From Lentisphaerota bacterium (GTDB taxonomy: Bacteria; Verrucomicrobiota; Kiritimatiellia; PWTM01): a stretch of 52,555 bases of DNA. The stretch is from contig VGWF01000011.1 in NCBI GenBank assembly GCA_016873715.1, positions 1 to 52,555 on the forward strand. The letters run 5' to 3'. The notes under the pieces are model-generated. The model worked only from the letters and a program-made list of their open reading frames with translations, ran no database searches and was not told the origin of the DNA. Within the stretch, counting starts at the first letter, position 1; every line of letters begins with the position of its first letter. Of the stretch, positions 25,961 through 36,445 are shown in pieces. The position numbers and the translations under genes were made by a program.

Positions 25961-26055
25961 GTTGAGCGCGGCCTAATGTTGGCTGTTGGTTGTTGGATGT
26001 TGGGTATTGGATGTTGAATCCGCCGTTCGATGTTCGGCGTTCGATGTTGGGCGTT
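25940..26055 (+). repeat. Degenerate heptamer repeat block (GTTGGAT / GTTCGAT type) between sufB and sufD
   Basis: A run of TGTTGGTTG, TTGGATGTTG, GTTCGATGTTCGGCGTTCG words, preceded by a TTCAAGTTTCAAGTT stretch. It shares a 25-bp identical segment beginning GTTGGCTGTTGGTTG with the block at 32871-32996, in the same order and orientation, followed in both by TGTTGAATCCG and CGATGTTCGGCGTTCGATG. Read on the other strand it gives peptides of the NIQHPTANIQ kind often mis-annotated as proteins. Confidence 0.85.
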
Positions 26056-29485: not shown

Positions 29486-30643
29486 TCAAGGGCGCCAGTC
29501 CTCGAGCGCCCGCACCATCGCGCCCATGTAGCGGTTGACCTGCATCCCGTCGAGCGCGCGGTGGTCGATGGTCAGTGTGAGATAGACCATCGGCCGGATC
29601 GCCACGCGCTCGCCGTCGCCGTCCGCCACGACCACCGCGCGGCGCTGGACCCTTCCGACGCCCAGGATCGCGCACTGCGGCTGGTGCAGGATCGGCGTGG
29701 CCATCAGGCTCCCGCCCATGCCGTGGTTCGTGATGGTCAGCGTGCCGCCCTCGGTCTCGTTCGGCGCGAACCGCCCGCTGCGCGCCCGCTCGGTGAGCGC
29801 CGCGCTCTCGCGGGCCAGGCCGCGGAGGTCGAGGCGCTGCGCCGCGCGGATCACCGGCACGAGGATGCCCGAGGGCACCTCGACGGCGAGGCCGAGGTTC
29901 ATGTCCTCGTAGACATCGAGGCTGTCGTCGCTCCAGCGGCTGTTCACCTCCGGCACGGCGTCGCGCGCGATCACGGCGGCGCGGAGGAAGTAGGGTGTGT
30001 ACGACAGGTGGACGCCCGCCGCCGCCCACGCGGCCCGGTGCGCCTCGCGATGCGCGACGACCGCCGTGAGATCGGCCTCGTAGAGCGCCGTCGCGTGCGG
30101 CGCGCGCTGCACGCTCTCCGCCATGTGCCGCGCGATCGCCCGGCGCAGCGGCGAATGCGGGATGCGGCGGACGCCCGGCAGCGGCGGCGGCTCGGGCGGC
30201 GGCGTCACCTCGCCGTGCGCGGCCAGATGGCGCTCGATGTCCTCCGCCGTCACGCGACCCCCGATCCCGGTCCCCGTGATGCGGGCCGGATCCACCCCGT
30301 GCTCGCGCGCCAGCCGCCGGACCGCCGGGCTCAGCCACGCGCCCGCCTCCCGGACGGACGGCGCCGCGGCCGGCGCGGCGGCGGCGATCCCGGCGGCGGT
30401 CTCCGCCCCCTCGTCGATCCGGCCGAGCCGTTCGCCCTCGCCGACGGGATCGCCAACGGCGCGGGCCTGCTCGACCAGCACGCCGGAGGCCGGGGCCGCG
30501 ATCTCGATCGTCGTCTTGCCCGTGCTGATCTCGAGCAGCGGCGCTCCGGCCTCGACGCGGTCGCCCACGGCGGCGAACCACGCGCCGACCGTCGAGTCCC
30601 CGTTCCGCTCGAGAGTCTCCCGCAGGACGATCTCCACGCTCAT
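29486..30643 (-). CDS. 2-oxoacid dehydrogenase E2 (dihydrolipoamide acyltransferase)
   Basis: 385 residues. Lipoyl domain at residues 1-77 with the lipoylation lysine in EISTGKTTIEI (STGK instead of the usual TDK). A flexible alanine/proline linker follows, then a peripheral-subunit-binding domain (SPAVRRLAREHGVDPARITG, TGIGGRVTAEDI), and the acyltransferase domain with DHRALDGMQ at the end (catalytic HxxxDG intact). It transfers the acyl group made by E1 to CoA. Twelve bases separate it from the E1 gene stop. No E3 (dihydrolipoamide dehydrogenase) is encoded nearby. Confidence 0.92.
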   Translation of the reverse strand: MSVEIVLRETLERNGDSTVGAWFAAVGDRVEAGAPLLEISTGKTTIEIAAPASGVLVEQARAVGDPVGEGERLGRIDEGAETAAGIAAAAPAAAPSVREAGAWLSPAVRRLAREHGVDPARITGTGIGGRVTAEDIERHLAAHGEVTPPPEPPPLPGVRRIPHSPLRRAIARHMAESVQRAPHATALYEADLTAVVAHREAHRAAWAAAGVHLSYTPYFLRAAVIARDAVPEVNSRWSDDSLDVYEDMNLGLAVEVPSGILVPVIRAAQRLDLRGLARESAALTERARSGRFAPNETEGGTLTITNHGMGGSLMATPILHQPQCAILGVGRVQRRAVVVADGDGERVAIRPMVYLTLTIDHRALDGMQVNRYMGAMVRALEDWRP

Positions 30644-30655
30644 GGCCCCCTCCCC

Positions 30656-32740
30656 TCAGAACGCCGCCAGTTCCCGCATCCGGACCGCGATCCGCGATGT
30701 CCCCGGCACCACCGCCTCGACCAGCGCCGGGTGGTACGGCACCGGCACCGGCAGCGAGGCGACGCGGGCGATCGGCGCATCGAGCGACTCGAACGCCTGC
30801 TCCGCCACCACCGCCGCGATCTCGGCGCCGAACCCGGCCGTCAGCGCGTCCTCGTGCGCCACCAGGCACCGGCGCGTGCGCCGCACGGAGGCGAGCACCG
30901 CCTCCGCATCCCATGGCGCCAGCGTCCGCAGGTCGATCACCTCGGCGTCCACCTCCGCCTCGGCCGCCGCCAGCAGGCAGCGCTCGACCATCGCCCCCCA
31001 CGCAACAACCGTCATCCGGCGGCCCTCGCGGACGATCCGCGCGCGGCCGAACGGAACGAGATGGCCGTCGCCGGGATACGGCCGCCGCGCGCCGATGCCG
31101 TCGAGCAGCGCCCGGTGCTCGAGGAAGAGGACGGGATCGTGCCCGCGGATCGCCGCGCGCAGCAGGCCCGCCGCGTCGTCGGCGTGCGACGGGAACGCGA
31201 CGCGCCAGCCCGGCAGCCGGACCAGCGACGCCTCCGCGCTCTCGCTGTGCCACGGATCCGTCTGCCGCGAGCAGCCCACCGGGATCCGCACGACCATCGG
31301 CGCCGCGCACCGGTTCGCGGTGCGCCACCGGATCGTGCCGGCGTTGTGCAGCTGCTCCTGCGCCGCGTCGGCGTACTTGCGGAACTGGATCTCGGCCACC
31401 GGCATCAGGCCCGCCGCCGCCATGCCCACCGCGCGCCCGATGATGCCCTCCTCGGAGAGGCTCGTGTCGAAGACGCGATCCTCGCCGAAGCGCTCCTGCA
31501 GACCCGCCGTCACGCCGTGCACACCGCCCTTGCGGCCGACGTCCTCGCCGAAGACCACCACGCGCGGATTCGCGCCCAGCTCGGACTCCAGCGTCCGCCG
31601 GATCGCCGCGAGCATCGTCGTCCGCGTCGTCTCCGGCCCGTCCGCCTCCGGGGCCGGCGCCACGGCGGCCTCGGGGAGCAACCCGCCCCGCACGGCCGGG
31701 ATCGGCGCGCCGAGCTCGGTCGACTCCTGGACCAGGTGACGCGTGACGCCCGCCGGGTCGGGGTCGGGCCGGGCGTCCGCCCGCGCGAATGCCGCGCGGA
31801 CGGTCTGCTCCTGCGCCGCGGCGAGCGCGTCCCACTCCGCAGCGTCCATCACGGCCGGCACGCAGAAGGCGCGCAGCCGCTCGACCGGATCCCGGTCCGC
31901 CTGCGCCTCGAGTTCGCCCGCCGGCCGGTACGCCTGGTTGTCCTGCCCCGAGTGCCCGCACAGGCGCGGGACCGACATCCGCAGCAGGCACGGGCCGGCC
32001 CCCCACGCCCGCACGTGCGCCGCGGCCCGCGCGACCGCCGAGGCGGCCGCCGCCGGGTCGGCCCCGTCCGCGGACATCACGCACAGCCCGCCGAAGGAGG
32101 CCAGGTTCTCCGCGATGTTCCCGCCGGGCGTCTGCGCCCGGCCGGGCACGGAGATCGCGTAGCCGTTGTCCTCGATGAAGAACAGCATCGGCAGGCGAAG
32201 CGTGGTGGCCATCGTCAGCGCGGACCAGAACCCGCCTGCCGCCGTCGACCCCTCGCCGCCGTGGGCGACGCCGATGCAGCCCGCGGCCCCCGCGTCGCCG
32301 AGCCGCTCCGCGCGGTGGCGCAGCGCCTGGCACCAGCCCGCGACGGGCGTGAACTGTCCGCCGACGTCGCCGGCCATCGGCAGGACCGTCGGCCCGCTCC
32401 GCCGGGGCAGGTTGTAGACGACGCCGATGTCGCGTCCGTCCGAGAACGCCCCGGCGCGGCCGAGCATGCCGGCCAGCGCGTCCTCCGGCTCGAGGCCCGC
32501 CGCCAGCAGGAGCGGCCGGCTGCGGTAGTAGACGCCCGCGGCATCGCACGCGCCGCGCAGTTCGAGGCCGATCAGCACCTGCGCGAGCTCGTGGCCGCGC
32601 GCGGAGAACTGGTAGCCGATGCGCTTGGGCTCGTAGAGCTCGCGCATCTCGAACTCGTCCAGCGCGCGCGACAGCAGCACGAGCCGCGCGACCTCGTGCC
32701 AGTCGGGCGGCGGCCCGGTCTCGCGGTGGCGTTCGTTCAC
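30656..32740 (-). CDS. Fused alpha-beta E1 of a 2-oxoacid (probably branched-chain) dehydrogenase
   Basis: 694 residues. Residues about 1-340 are the alpha part (YQFSARGHELAQVLIGLELR, thiamine diphosphate motif GEGSTAAGGFWSALTMATTL through FFIEDNGYAISVP). Residues about 365-694 are the beta part (VVVFGEDVGRKGGVHGVTAG, TSLSEEGIIGRAVGMAAAGL, AEIQFRKYADAAQEQLHNAG, VIDLRTLAPWDAEAVLASV). The alpha-beta fusion and motif spelling fit 2-oxoisovalerate-type E1; pyruvate or acetoin remain possible. It starts with GTG 32740. No ribosome site is present; a TAGATT box lies five bases upstream, suggesting a leaderless mRNA. Confidence 0.9.
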   Translation of the reverse strand: MNERHRETGPPPDWHEVARLVLLSRALDEFEMRELYEPKRIGYQFSARGHELAQVLIGLELRGACDAAGVYYRSRPLLLAAGLEPEDALAGMLGRAGAFSDGRDIGVVYNLPRRSGPTVLPMAGDVGGQFTPVAGWCQALRHRAERLGDAGAAGCIGVAHGGEGSTAAGGFWSALTMATTLRLPMLFFIEDNGYAISVPGRAQTPGGNIAENLASFGGLCVMSADGADPAAAASAVARAAAHVRAWGAGPCLLRMSVPRLCGHSGQDNQAYRPAGELEAQADRDPVERLRAFCVPAVMDAAEWDALAAAQEQTVRAAFARADARPDPDPAGVTRHLVQESTELGAPIPAVRGGLLPEAAVAPAPEADGPETTRTTMLAAIRRTLESELGANPRVVVFGEDVGRKGGVHGVTAGLQERFGEDRVFDTSLSEEGIIGRAVGMAAAGLMPVAEIQFRKYADAAQEQLHNAGTIRWRTANRCAAPMVVRIPVGCSRQTDPWHSESAEASLVRLPGWRVAFPSHADDAAGLLRAAIRGHDPVLFLEHRALLDGIGARRPYPGDGHLVPFGRARIVREGRRMTVVAWGAMVERCLLAAAEAEVDAEVIDLRTLAPWDAEAVLASVRRTRRCLVAHEDALTAGFGAEIAAVVAEQAFESLDAPIARVASLPVPVPYHPALVEAVVPGTSRIAVRMRELAAF

Positions 32741-32870: not shown

Positions 32871-32996
32871 GTCGCTGGACGTTGGTTGTTGGACGTTGGT
32901 TGTTGGATGTTGGCTGTTGGTTGTTGGATGTTGAATCCGACCTCCGATGTTCGGCGTTCGATGTTCGGTGTTCGGTGTTGTCTGTTGGCCGTCGGC
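32871..32996 (+). repeat. Degenerate heptamer repeat block (GTTGGAC / GTTGGAT / GTTCGGT type)
   Basis: About 18 tandem degenerate heptamers fill the divergent gap between the E1 and mlaE-like genes, first of the GTTGGNT form, then GTTCGNT. A 25-bp segment and a 21-bp segment are identical to the block inside the suf operon at 25974-26055. This block and the hairpin at 33047 account for most of the 332-bp gap. Confidence 0.85.
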
Positions 32997-33072: not shown

Positions 33073-33861
33073 ATGAGCTTCATCGGACGCATCGGGGGCG
33101 CCGCGATCCGGAGGTGGCGGGAGCACCGCGACCTCATCGCCTCGGCGGCGGTGGCCGTGGCGCTGGCGCTCAGGCCCCGCACGTGGCGGCGGCCGATCCG
33201 CGCGGTGCTGGCGAGGCAGATCCTCTTCACGGGGGTCGACGCGATCCCGTTCGTCGCGATGGTCGCGGCGGTGATCGGGCTGGCGATCGTGCTGCAGACG
33301 CAGGCGCAGCTCGCGCGGCTCGGCCAGACGGCCTACGTCGGGCCGATCCTGGTCGCGGTCGTGATCCGCGAGGCCGGCCCGCTCCTCGTCAACTTCGTCA
33401 TCATCATGCGCAGCGGCACGGCCATCGCGTCGGAGCTTTCGACGATGCAGGTCAACGGCGAGATCCGCGTGCTGGACGCGCAGGGGCTGGACCCGTTCCC
33501 CTACCTCGCCCTGCCCCGCGCGGCGGGGGTGGCCGTCTCGGTGTTCTGCCTGACGATCCTCTTCGTGCTGGTCTCGTTCGCGGTCGGCTACGCCGCGGGC
33601 GTGATGATGGAGGCGCCGATGGGCACCGTCACGATGTTCGTCGAGGGCGTCGCGAAGGCGATCCTCCCGGCGGACATCCTCAACGTGGTCGCGAAGACGC
33701 TGATCCCGGGACTGCTGACGGGCATCATCTGCACGGCGGAGGGCCTCGGCGTTCACCGCGCGCTGACGGAGGTCCCGAAGGCGGCCTCGCGCGGCGTCGT
33801 CCGGTCCGTGGCCGCCCTGTTCTTCGTCTCGGTGATCGTTTCGCTGGTGACCTACCTGTGA
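33073..33861 (+). CDS. MlaE-like lipid ABC transporter permease
   Basis: 262 residues with about five membrane segments. GVDAIPFVAMVAAVIGLAIV, REAGPLLVNFVIIMRSGTAI and the MlaE signature ELSTMQVNGEIRVLDAQGLD with PRAAGVAVSVFCLTILFVLV are all present. In characterised systems MlaE works with the ATPase MlaF and the MCE protein MlaD to move phospholipids between the inner and outer membranes. It is the first gene of a five-gene run, and its stop overlaps the next start (GTGA). The ATG at 33073 (MSFIGRIGG) has no clear ribosome site and is preceded by a hairpin. Confidence 0.9.
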   Translation: MSFIGRIGGAAIRRWREHRDLIASAAVAVALALRPRTWRRPIRAVLARQILFTGVDAIPFVAMVAAVIGLAIVLQTQAQLARLGQTAYVGPILVAVVIREAGPLLVNFVIIMRSGTAIASELSTMQVNGEIRVLDAQGLDPFPYLALPRAAGVAVSVFCLTILFVLVSFAVGYAAGVMMEAPMGTVTMFVEGVAKAILPADILNVVAKTLIPGLLTGIICTAEGLGVHRALTEVPKAASRGVVRSVAALFFVSVIVSLVTYL

Positions 33862-34526
33862 GCGCGTCTCCTCCCATCCTGAGGCTCGCGGAGGCGGTCC
33901 CGGCGGACACGGCGGCGCCGATCTCCCTCGACCTCGCCCCGGGGGGGCTGGCCGTGCTGGAAGCCGCCGACCCCGCGTGGATCCCCGCCCTCGGGGACCT
34001 CGTGTGCGGTCTGGCCGATCCGGCCGCGGGTTCCGTCGAGTTCGAAGGCCGCGCGTGGGCCGGAGCGGCGCCGGGCGTACAGGCCGCGATGCGCGCCCGC
34101 ATCGGACGCGTCTTCTCCGGAGCGGCGTGGATCAGCAACCTCGACATCGACGAGAACGTGATCCTGGCCCAGCTTTACCACACGGACCGCCCGGCGGCGG
34201 ACCTGCACGCGGCGGCGGCGGATCTGGCCCGGCGGTTCGGCCTCGCGGGGATCCCCGCGGGGCGGCCGGCGTTTGCAGTCCCGCGGGACCTGCAGGCCGC
34301 GCAGTGGGTCCGCGCGTGGATGGCCCCCCGCACGCTGTTCGTGCTCGAGACGCCCGAAGCCGGCGTGTCCGCGCGCGCCGCGGGCCTCCTGCGGGCGGCG
34401 CTGCGCGAGGCCCTCGCGGCCGGCGCGGCGGCGGTCTGGATCGCGGAGCGGGCGGACCCGGCCCTGGAGGAGGCGGTCGGACCGGCGGTCCGGCTCGCCA
34501 TCGACGGGCCGGCTGCGGCAGGATAG
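33858..34526 (+). CDS. Degenerate ABC-ATPase-like subunit (catalytically dead MlaF homologue)
   Basis: 222 residues, GTG start. Its position between mlaE and mlaD and its general plan (ADPAAGSVEFEGRAW, RIGRVFSGAAWISNLDIDEN, LARRFGLAGIPAGRPAF) match MlaF, yet every catalytic motif is gone. The Walker A loop is replaced by LEAADPAWIPALGD (no GxxGxGKS/T). There is no Q-loop glutamine (GRVFSG). The LSGG signature reads AVPRDLQAAQW. Walker B/DEP reads LFVLETPEAGV (no DE pair). The H-switch reads WIAERADPA. The frame is long, uninterrupted and coupled on the 5' side, so this looks like a maintained pseudo-ATPase rather than a decaying gene. Confidence 0.7.
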   Translation: MSASPPILRLAEAVPADTAAPISLDLAPGGLAVLEAADPAWIPALGDLVCGLADPAAGSVEFEGRAWAGAAPGVQAAMRARIGRVFSGAAWISNLDIDENVILAQLYHTDRPAADLHAAAADLARRFGLAGIPAGRPAFAVPRDLQAAQWVRAWMAPRTLFVLETPEAGVSARAAGLLRAALREALAAGAAAVWIAERADPALEEAVGPAVRLAIDGPAAAG

Positions 34527-34547: not shown

Positions 34548-35519
34548 ATGGCGAATGCACCGTACAGATTCCGGCACGTGAACGAAATCGTGGGCACCTT
34601 CGTGGTGCTCGCGGTCGCGCTGATCGTCGCGGGCATCTTCCTCATGGCGCGGGCCCAGCGCTGGTTCGAGCCCGTGCACGACCTCCGCGTGACGTTCCCC
34701 GCCGAGGGCACCTTCGGCGTCGAACGCGGCGCGCGGATCGAGATCCTCGGCGCCGTCGCGGGTCGGGTCGACCGGATCCGGGTCCACGACGACGGGTCCA
34801 TCCAGGGCATCCTCCGCGTCCGCGGCGAGTACGCCCGCTTCCTCCACACCGACTCCACCGCGATCGTGAAGAAGGAGTACGGGGTGGCCGGATCCTCGTA
34901 CATCGTCATCACGGTCGGCGCCGGCGCACCGCTGCCGCTCGAGGACGCCGCGATCCCGATCCGCAAGGACACCGAACTGCTCGAGATGCTCCAGCTGGTC
35001 GTCGAACAGATCCAGGAGTCCGTGCTGCCGGCCCTGACCGAGGTTGAGAAGACCCTGGCCGAATACCGCGGGCTCGCGGCCGACCTCCGCAGCCCGACGA
35101 ACAACCTCCAGATGCTCCTCGCGAACATGAACGGCATCGCCGAGGGGCTGCGCCAGGGCGAGGGGACGGCCGGGAAGATCCTGCGCGACCCCGCCATCGC
35201 CGACGAGTCGCACAAGGCCGTGCAGCAGGTCAACGCGCTGCTCGGCAAGCTGGAGAAGACGATCGACGAGGCCAACGGCATCCTCCGCAACGTGCAGAAG
35301 TCGTCCGACGCCCTCCCCGAGGTCGTCGAGACCGTGCGCGGCGAGATGAAGGACATCCCCGGCGTCGTCCTCCAGGCCCGCGCCACCCTGGACGAGACCG
35401 AGAAACTTCTCTCCGGCCTTCAGCGCCACTGGCTCCTGCGCGGCGCGATGGAGGGCGGAACACCGCTCGATCCCATCCCGCCCGGAGCGGTCGGCGGCGG
35501 CAGCGGAGGCGCGCCATGA
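34548..35519 (+). CDS. MCE-domain lipid-binding protein (MlaD-like)
   Basis: 323 residues. One N-terminal membrane anchor (IVGTFVVLAVALIVAGIFLM, residues about 14-33), an MCE domain at about 40-125 (LRVTFPAEGTFGVERGARIE, GRVDRIRV, AIVKKEYGVAGSSYIVIT), then a long helical region to about 300 (LRSPTNNLQMLLANMNGIAE, GTAGKILRDPAIADESHKAV, VNALLGKLEKTIDEAN) that would form a tunnel or needle across the periplasm, and a glycine-rich tail. It is the substrate-carrying partner of MlaE. Its stop overlaps the next gene's ATG (ATGA). Confidence 0.9.
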   Translation: MANAPYRFRHVNEIVGTFVVLAVALIVAGIFLMARAQRWFEPVHDLRVTFPAEGTFGVERGARIEILGAVAGRVDRIRVHDDGSIQGILRVRGEYARFLHTDSTAIVKKEYGVAGSSYIVITVGAGAPLPLEDAAIPIRKDTELLEMLQLVVEQIQESVLPALTEVEKTLAEYRGLAADLRSPTNNLQMLLANMNGIAEGLRQGEGTAGKILRDPAIADESHKAVQQVNALLGKLEKTIDEANGILRNVQKSSDALPEVVETVRGEMKDIPGVVLQARATLDETEKLLSGLQRHWLLRGAMEGGTPLDPIPPGAVGGGSGGAP

Positions 35520-36445
35520 GCGCGGCCCGGACGATCACCCGGCTCGTGGCGGCCGCCGGTCTGCTCCTGGCCGCCGGCTGCCGGACGGCGCAACCGACCG
35601 TCGCCACCGACGCGGACCTCGGCCGGCTCGCATCCGCCGCCCGCAAGGTCTTCGACATGGGCGAGCCGGCGCGCGCCGTGCCGCTCTACCGCGACGCGCT
35701 CGCGCGGGCCCGCGCGCTCGACGACGCCTCCGCGATCGGCGCCGTCGGCGCGAGCCTGGCCGCGTGCCTGCTCGACGCCGGGGCGAAGGACGAGGCTCTC
35801 ACCGCCATCCGCGAGGCGCGCGACGGCCTGCGCCGCGCAGGCCGCCCCGAGACCGATGCCGCGATCCTCGAGGGCCGCATCGCCCTCGCCCGGGGCCGGA
35901 CGGACGACGCCCGCGCCGTCGCCGCATCGCTCGCGGCGCTGCCGGCGCCGCCGCGCCCCTCCCGCGCCGCCGCCGCGTTGCTGTCCGCCGAGATCGCGCT
36001 GGCGGCGAAAGAGTTCCACGTCGCCCGCGCCGCCCTCGACACCGCCGCGCGCCTGGCCGGACCCGGCGATCCCGCCACGCTGCTCGCGTGGATCGCCGAG
36101 ACCCGCGCCCGCCTGCACCTCGCCGCCGACCTCCCCGCCGCGGCGGCGGACGCCTTCGAGGAGGCCGCCGGGTTCCGCGGACGCGCATCGCAAAAGGCCG
36201 GGCGGGTCGCGGCCGACCTGCTCGCCGCCGCCGACGCGCGCGAGAAGGCCGGCGACAAGGCCGGCGGGGCGGACTGCCTCTACCGCGCCGCGCGGGCGCT
36301 GGCCGGCGCCGGCCGCCGGGAGGCCGCCCGGCAGCCGCTGGAGCGGGCCGCCGCCCTGGCCGGCGGCGCACCGGAAGCCGCGGGCCTCCGGGAGTTGATC
36401 GCCGCGCTGGCCGCGGAGCTGGACACGACGACGCCGAAGCCGTGA
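35516..36445 (+). CDS. TPR-like helical-repeat lipoprotein
   Basis: 309 residues. The signal MSAARTITRLVAAAGLLLAA ends at a GC lipobox. The mature part is almost entirely alanine-rich paired helices in TPR-like repeats (ARKVFDMGEPARAVPLYRDA, AACLLDAGAKDEALTAIREA, YRAARALAGAGRREAARQPL). By location it may be the outer-membrane or periplasmic partner of the MCE protein, a place taken by ABC-type_transport_aux or MlaC-like proteins in other operons; it shows no similarity to those that I can see. Translationally coupled to the MCE gene. Confidence 0.75.
   Translation: MSAARTITRLVAAAGLLLAAGCRTAQPTVATDADLGRLASAARKVFDMGEPARAVPLYRDALARARALDDASAIGAVGASLAACLLDAGAKDEALTAIREARDGLRRAGRPETDAAILEGRIALARGRTDDARAVAASLAALPAPPRPSRAAAALLSAEIALAAKEFHVARAALDTAARLAGPGDPATLLAWIAETRARLHLAADLPAAAADAFEEAAGFRGRASQKAGRVAADLLAAADAREKAGDKAGGADCLYRAARALAGAGRREAARQPLERAAALAGGAPEAAGLRELIAALAAELDTTTPKP

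Follow-up and report, generated by a model that had tools for sequence, protein, structure and literature searches.

A stretch of 52,555 nucleotides (the window; positions 1 to 52,555 of contig VGWF01000011.1, assembly GCA_016873715.1, Lentisphaerota bacterium) carries an mlaE operon in which the place of the ATPase gene mlaF is taken by a gene for a 222-residue protein, here called X. The best explanation, to which we assign a probability of roughly 0.57, is that X has an ABC ATPase as its ancestor and now serves as a dedicated non-hydrolysing subunit of the transporter. A motor subunit that lacks the residues for ATP and is apparently still fitted to the permease MlaE suggests an ATP-type machine without its own motor, that is, an Mla/MCE transporter normally run on ATP that works in these bacteria without its own fuel-burning part. 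The bulk movement of phospholipid between the inner and outer membranes, and its energy cost, are a long-standing question.

X is encoded by an uninterrupted frame, the second gene of a four-gene cluster (Table 1). The sharing of one operon by a PF02405 permease and a PF02470 MCE protein, the criterion for an Mla-like system, is met here and in the relatives; no mlaC or mlaB gene was recognised in the four-gene cluster. The stop/start overlap between mlaE and the X gene was GTGA or ATGA in all eight orthologues of the order, and the ATG of the TPR gene likewise overlaps the stop of the MCE gene (ATGA). The MCE protein consists of a transmembrane helix, an MCE beta domain and about 160 further residues of helices according to the secondary structure of an AlphaFold model, which is itself weak (pLDDT 67, pTM 0.38) and of low confidence beyond the MCE domain. 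The TPR protein starts with a lipobox-like LLLAAGC (read by eye) and is probably a lipoprotein. A preliminary description had put X in the MlaF slot, GTGA-coupled to mlaE and flanked by normal MlaE and MCE genes, and had reported all its ATPase motifs as replaced; each of these statements was borne out, the last by the alignment described below.

Table 1. Features of the X gene cluster (positions in the window).
Feature	Position	Strand	Evidence or remark
X-type mlaE, permease	33073..33861	+	PF02405, E 4.7e-47; start taken as the ATG at 33073 (assumed)
GTGA stop/start overlap mlaE/X	33858..33861	+	GTG start of X overlaps the mlaE stop
X, degenerate MlaF-like ABC domain, putative pseudo-ATPase subunit, 222 aa	33858..34526	+	Homology, AlphaFold, alignment
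MCE (MlaD-like) gene, 323 aa	34548..35519	+	PF02470, E 1.1e-5
TPR protein gene, fourth in cluster	35516..36445	+	TPR_12, E 8.3e-7; conserved position in relatives

Two genes on the minus strand (30656-32740 and 29486-30643), divergent from the mlaE operon, resemble, by eye, genes for two parts of a 2-oxo-acid dehydrogenase, a fused E1 alpha-beta subunit and an E2 acyltransferase.

As a single sequence, X matched ABC ATPases only weakly, both among family models (NCBIfam NF047930, 5.9e-9; FtsE, 1.6e-4) and in the PDB (LolD, 8.5e-4; MlaF, 1.4e-3), and a profile built from eight X orthologues matched LolD at 1.3e-14 and MlaF at 5.6e-9. The AlphaFold model of X is a full ABC domain (pLDDT 89.9, pTM 0.89), with which Foldseek retrieved the complete ABC domains of HrtA, YbbA, MacB, LolD, FtsE and MlaF (best E 8.9e-14; MlaF 1.1e-11). 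A PF00005 match at E <= 0.01 was obtained for 29 of 31 X proteins. Since the profile and fold searches find ABC ATPases, the absence of any such similarity, which had been named beforehand as a refutation, does not apply. X nevertheless scored only 11.3 bits against the MlaF model PRK11831/NF008809, below its family cut-off of 441 bits, and neither Pfam nor NCBIfam holds a family of its own for it. When the X proteins were put in one tree with ATPases of the MlaF, LolD-like, LptB and sugar types, they came together in a single long-branched clade (100/100), which this tree did not place within or beside MlaF.

Aligned to E. coli MlaF, X of the window shows the replacements K47>I, Q92>S, S146>V, G147>P, G148>R, D169>E, E170>T and H203>E, so that the Walker A lysine, Q-loop Gln, LSGG, catalytic Glu and H-switch His are missing. 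The alignment was extended to 61 non-redundant X proteins and 31 canonical MlaF-type ATPases of the class, in addition to E. coli MlaF. The catalytic residues are kept in 31/31 canonical proteins, and in X they are kept in 1 (K47), 0 (Q92), 3 (G147), 4 (G148), 5 (D169), 7 (E170) and 0 (H203) of 61. As motifs, Walker A, Q-loop, LSGG, Walker B Glu and H-switch are present in all 31 canonical proteins and absent in all 61 of the X proteins, none of which gave a Walker A or LSGG match. The mlaE-X-MCE operons of relatives, for which the preliminary description had asked whether X always lacks Walker A, thus answer in the affirmative for every non-redundant copy examined. Alignment near the lost phosphate loop is uncertain; the absence of the motifs does not depend on it. 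The mean entropy of the ATP-site columns of X was 2.96, against an average of 2.06, and none of 20,000 random sets of columns was as high. A Walker B-like strand remains, with Glu at the Asp position in 51/61 proteins. As far as sequences alone can tell, drift at the ATP-site positions of X has been unconstrained, and X is predicted to be dead as an ATPase, the lack of activity being an inference.

The frame itself is under purifying selection. In eleven related pairs the dN/dS of X was about 0.06-0.37 by the NG86 method, the main figure used here, with dS near saturation in some pairs; it was somewhat above that of MlaE and MCE in most pairs and far from 1, the value that would have refuted the reading. 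X also has invariants of its own (MlaF numbering), for example Trp72, Trp200 and Asn99, with Trp155 nearly always present, and it retains Arg157 in 61/61 proteins. A decaying pseudogene or an assembly error has nothing in its favour except the lost motifs; it is refuted here by intact frames over dozens of genera, by these dN/dS values and by the conserved new invariants, and recent decay was rejected on the same frames and values. The alternative offered in the preliminary description, a stable repurposing, held up, the 61 non-redundant copies without Walker A or LSGG being spread across the class.

X was found in 91 of 193 sampled genomes of the class Kiritimatiellia with a threshold of > 110 bits. 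The boundary is sharp, since the next match below it (94 bits, genome G012) is an ordinary LolD-like ATPase. Intermediates with a partial ATP site were sought in the low-scoring tail (families f26 and f41), where all proteins were degenerate. At the level of the order X occurs in eight of nine genomes, the window's own included, the other seven proteins being 42-52% identical to it. A scan of 388 genomes of the phylum gave 50 X matches, all within the same class. A scan of public genomes yielded 30 X loci, whose titles name Kiritimatiellae, Lentisphaerae, Verrucomicrobia and a small number of other groups; any title other than Kiritimatiellae is probably a loose label. The order mlaE-X-MCE, usually followed by the TPR gene, is kept nearly throughout the X-positive genomes. 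In G068 and G086, of one genus, X and MCE lie away from mlaE and an X-type mlaE is retained elsewhere, which counts in favour of X as a subunit of the transporter. The most divergent X locus, L077 (labelled Verrucomicrobiales), has 30% identity and a five-residue insert after the GTVW segment. No published account of a dead MlaF, of a pseudo-ATPase ABC subunit or of a Kiritimatiellae MCE system was found in the open-access literature.

The X system is paralogous to a normal Mla operon and comes in addition to it. Canonical MlaF was detected in 85 of the 91 X-positive genomes at E < 1e-75, and in nearly all genomes X is accompanied by an ordinary mlaE-mlaF operon whose ATPase motifs are intact. 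The separate MlaF-like ATPase that had been suspected elsewhere in the window's genome is indeed present and looks intact: canonical mlaF lies on a contig other than that of X (G000:C231:4125-4766; the match lacks the first 39 positions), and canonical mlaE lies at a contig end (C84:127-753). Five of the six X-positive genomes without canonical MlaF are incomplete. The sixth, G068, is rated 100% complete and is a draft of about 110 contigs; it has X with MCE in one place and an X-type MlaE in another (C7:17797-18354 and C29:45677-46312; loci L090 and L144), and neither canonical MlaE nor canonical MlaF was found in this draft.

In E. coli, the MlaE coupling-helix residues R142, S131, Q128, E127 and M135 contact MlaF residues E112, R157, L96, R52 and Y108 (PMC7784689). 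The five MlaE-contact columns of X had an entropy of 0.81 and were conserved above average (permutation p 0.003). The best coordinated pair was MlaF 52/MlaE 127, which passes from Arg/Glu to Asp/Gly: position 52 is K/R in 30/31 canonical proteins and D in 55/61 X proteins, and MlaE 127 is E in 26/27 canonical permeases and G in 50/57 X-type ones, in which it is never E or D. The pair MlaE 135/X 96 reads Q/W at 41 loci and M/L at 9, the switch falling mostly in family f26 and thus representing few independent events. The coupling helix of X-type MlaE, which in the window reads MQVNGEIRVLDAQGLDPF and is clade-specific, has a firm consensus (M-K/R-V-x-G-E-V/I-R-x-L-D-A-Q-G-L/I-D-P-F) that differs from the canonical one. 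Because this helix holds a consensus of its own, X-type MlaE appears still to have a partner, and because the core charged residues Arg97, Glu98 and Lys205 are kept, the permease looks sound. The contact map is only approximate, since the pairs 142/112 and 131/157, two of the five, lack the E. coli chemistry even in the canonical proteins of the class. X also has no counterpart of the C-terminal handshake tail, which E. coli MlaF needs for assembly (PMC7367683), a point that counts against assembly on MlaE. By these comparisons, the MlaE-facing positions of X are conserved and have changed together with MlaE, which makes it most likely that X remains bound to MlaE in the role of a dedicated, non-hydrolysing subunit; the physical assembly is inferred.

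Since canonical MlaF accompanies X in most genomes, that of the window included, the X system could usually borrow an active ATPase, and active drive is not excluded. The main rival, unlikely in our estimate, is that the active MlaF of the ordinary operon drives X-type MlaE and that X, as a brake or assembly factor that can be exchanged for it, competes for the coupling helix. The mycobacterial ATPase MceG offers a parallel, as it is reported to serve more than one Mce transporter (PMC9947336). Such an exchange sits uneasily with the loss from X-type MlaE of Glu127, the partner of Lys/Arg at MlaF 52, with the different consensus of the coupling helix, with the stop-start overlap of mlaE and X, which suggests coupled translation, and with G068, subject to the draft state of that genome. 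A mixed dimer of X and canonical MlaF on MlaE, after the manner of heterodimeric ABC transporters with one degenerate site, is very improbable: pairs of a degenerate and an active domain are common among ABC exporters (PMC7756269), but the known pairs keep one composite site, whereas in an X-MlaF pair both would be broken because X has lost Walker A and signature alike.

Two further readings dispense with the role of a silent permease subunit. X might have left the permease for a role elsewhere, such as that of a cytoplasmic regulator with no more than the operon in common, as the separation of X from mlaE in G068 and G086 would allow; the conservation of the coupling-helix contact positions, and their change with MlaE, make this improbable. 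That X binds or splits nucleotide through non-standard residues is barely credible, for the persisting Walker B-like strand with its Glu is set against a random phosphate-binding loop, a variable catalytic position and the lack of any conserved replacement motif. A permanently non-hydrolysing X is favoured over the borrowing of MlaF by the changed coupling helix and the tight coupling of X to MlaE, and over a mixed dimer by the breakage of both its sites.

If X is such a subunit, two copies would sit on the coupling helices of the MlaE dimer in the usual place of MlaF, both assembly and stoichiometry being inferred, and would hold the permease or act as its gate. Transfer of lipid across the periplasm would fall to the MCE ring, together with its helical extension, and to the putative TPR lipoprotein, and lipid movement through the complex would not be paid for by ATP; it might be passive, gated or otherwise powered. 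That the X-type complex works without ATP is likewise an inference from sequence. The wider proposal, that with all nucleotide-binding subunits pseudo-enzymes the system forms a class-wide, dedicated ATP-independent conduit for lipid between the membranes, perhaps passive or proton-driven, remains tentative and falls a little short of even odds. Passive flow or a different source of energy has likewise been considered for PqiA (PMC10897342).

X shares with MlaF of E. coli MlaFEDB the ABC fold, a gene beside mlaE and mlaD, and a conserved MlaE-facing groove including Arg157, and differs from it in the absence of ATP motifs and of the handshake tail and in the charge at the coupling-helix contact. 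The Mpc system of Brucella abortus (MpcEFDA, PMC12436622) is likewise a four-gene operon for a permease, an ABC-type subunit, a single-MCE protein (331 aa versus 323 aa in the X cluster) and an outer-membrane lipoprotein; there, however, the ABC-type subunit MpcF is an ordinary ATPase of the MlaF-like kind and the lipoprotein MpcA resembles PqiC, whereas the X cluster has a dead ATPase, as predicted, and a TPR fourth gene. In E. coli, PqiABC and LetAB are MCE transporters that lack an ATPase of their own (PMC10897342); their membrane component is PqiA or LetA rather than MlaE, and the ABC-type subunit is absent altogether. Degenerate-site ABC transporters (PMC7756269) resemble X in having a nucleotide-binding domain with lost catalytic residues, but they retain one active composite site, whereas neither half of the site survives in X, which has no active partner encoded next to it. 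The minimal MlaEFD of Veillonella parvula (PMC10665443) also combines mlaE-F-D genes and a long MlaD with the absence of MlaA and MlaC; its MlaF is as in model diderms and its MlaD ends in a beta-barrel.

In a survey of Mla systems that took in PVC bacteria, MlaF was recognised with the PRK11831 model (PMC10665443), against which X reaches only about 11 bits, so X would have escaped notice in it; surveys of MlaF based on motifs or family models would in general miss X. An E. coli mlaF deletion is not complemented by MlaF Walker-motif mutants (PMC7367683). The class seems to have run this loss-of-function experiment naturally and to have kept the outcome, while the same cells retain an intact Mla system. 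In the X systems a single permease family can be compared cleanly in the presence and absence of an ATPase, and they offer a natural test of lipid conduction by MlaE when no ATP is used.

Outside the cluster, (TTGGNTG)n repeats with a seven-base phase were observed at 32876-32979 and 25979-26003. The 18-mer TTGGNTGTTGGNTGTTGG occurs in 367 copies genome-wide, compared with 3 for the reversed control, and is dispersed across many contigs.
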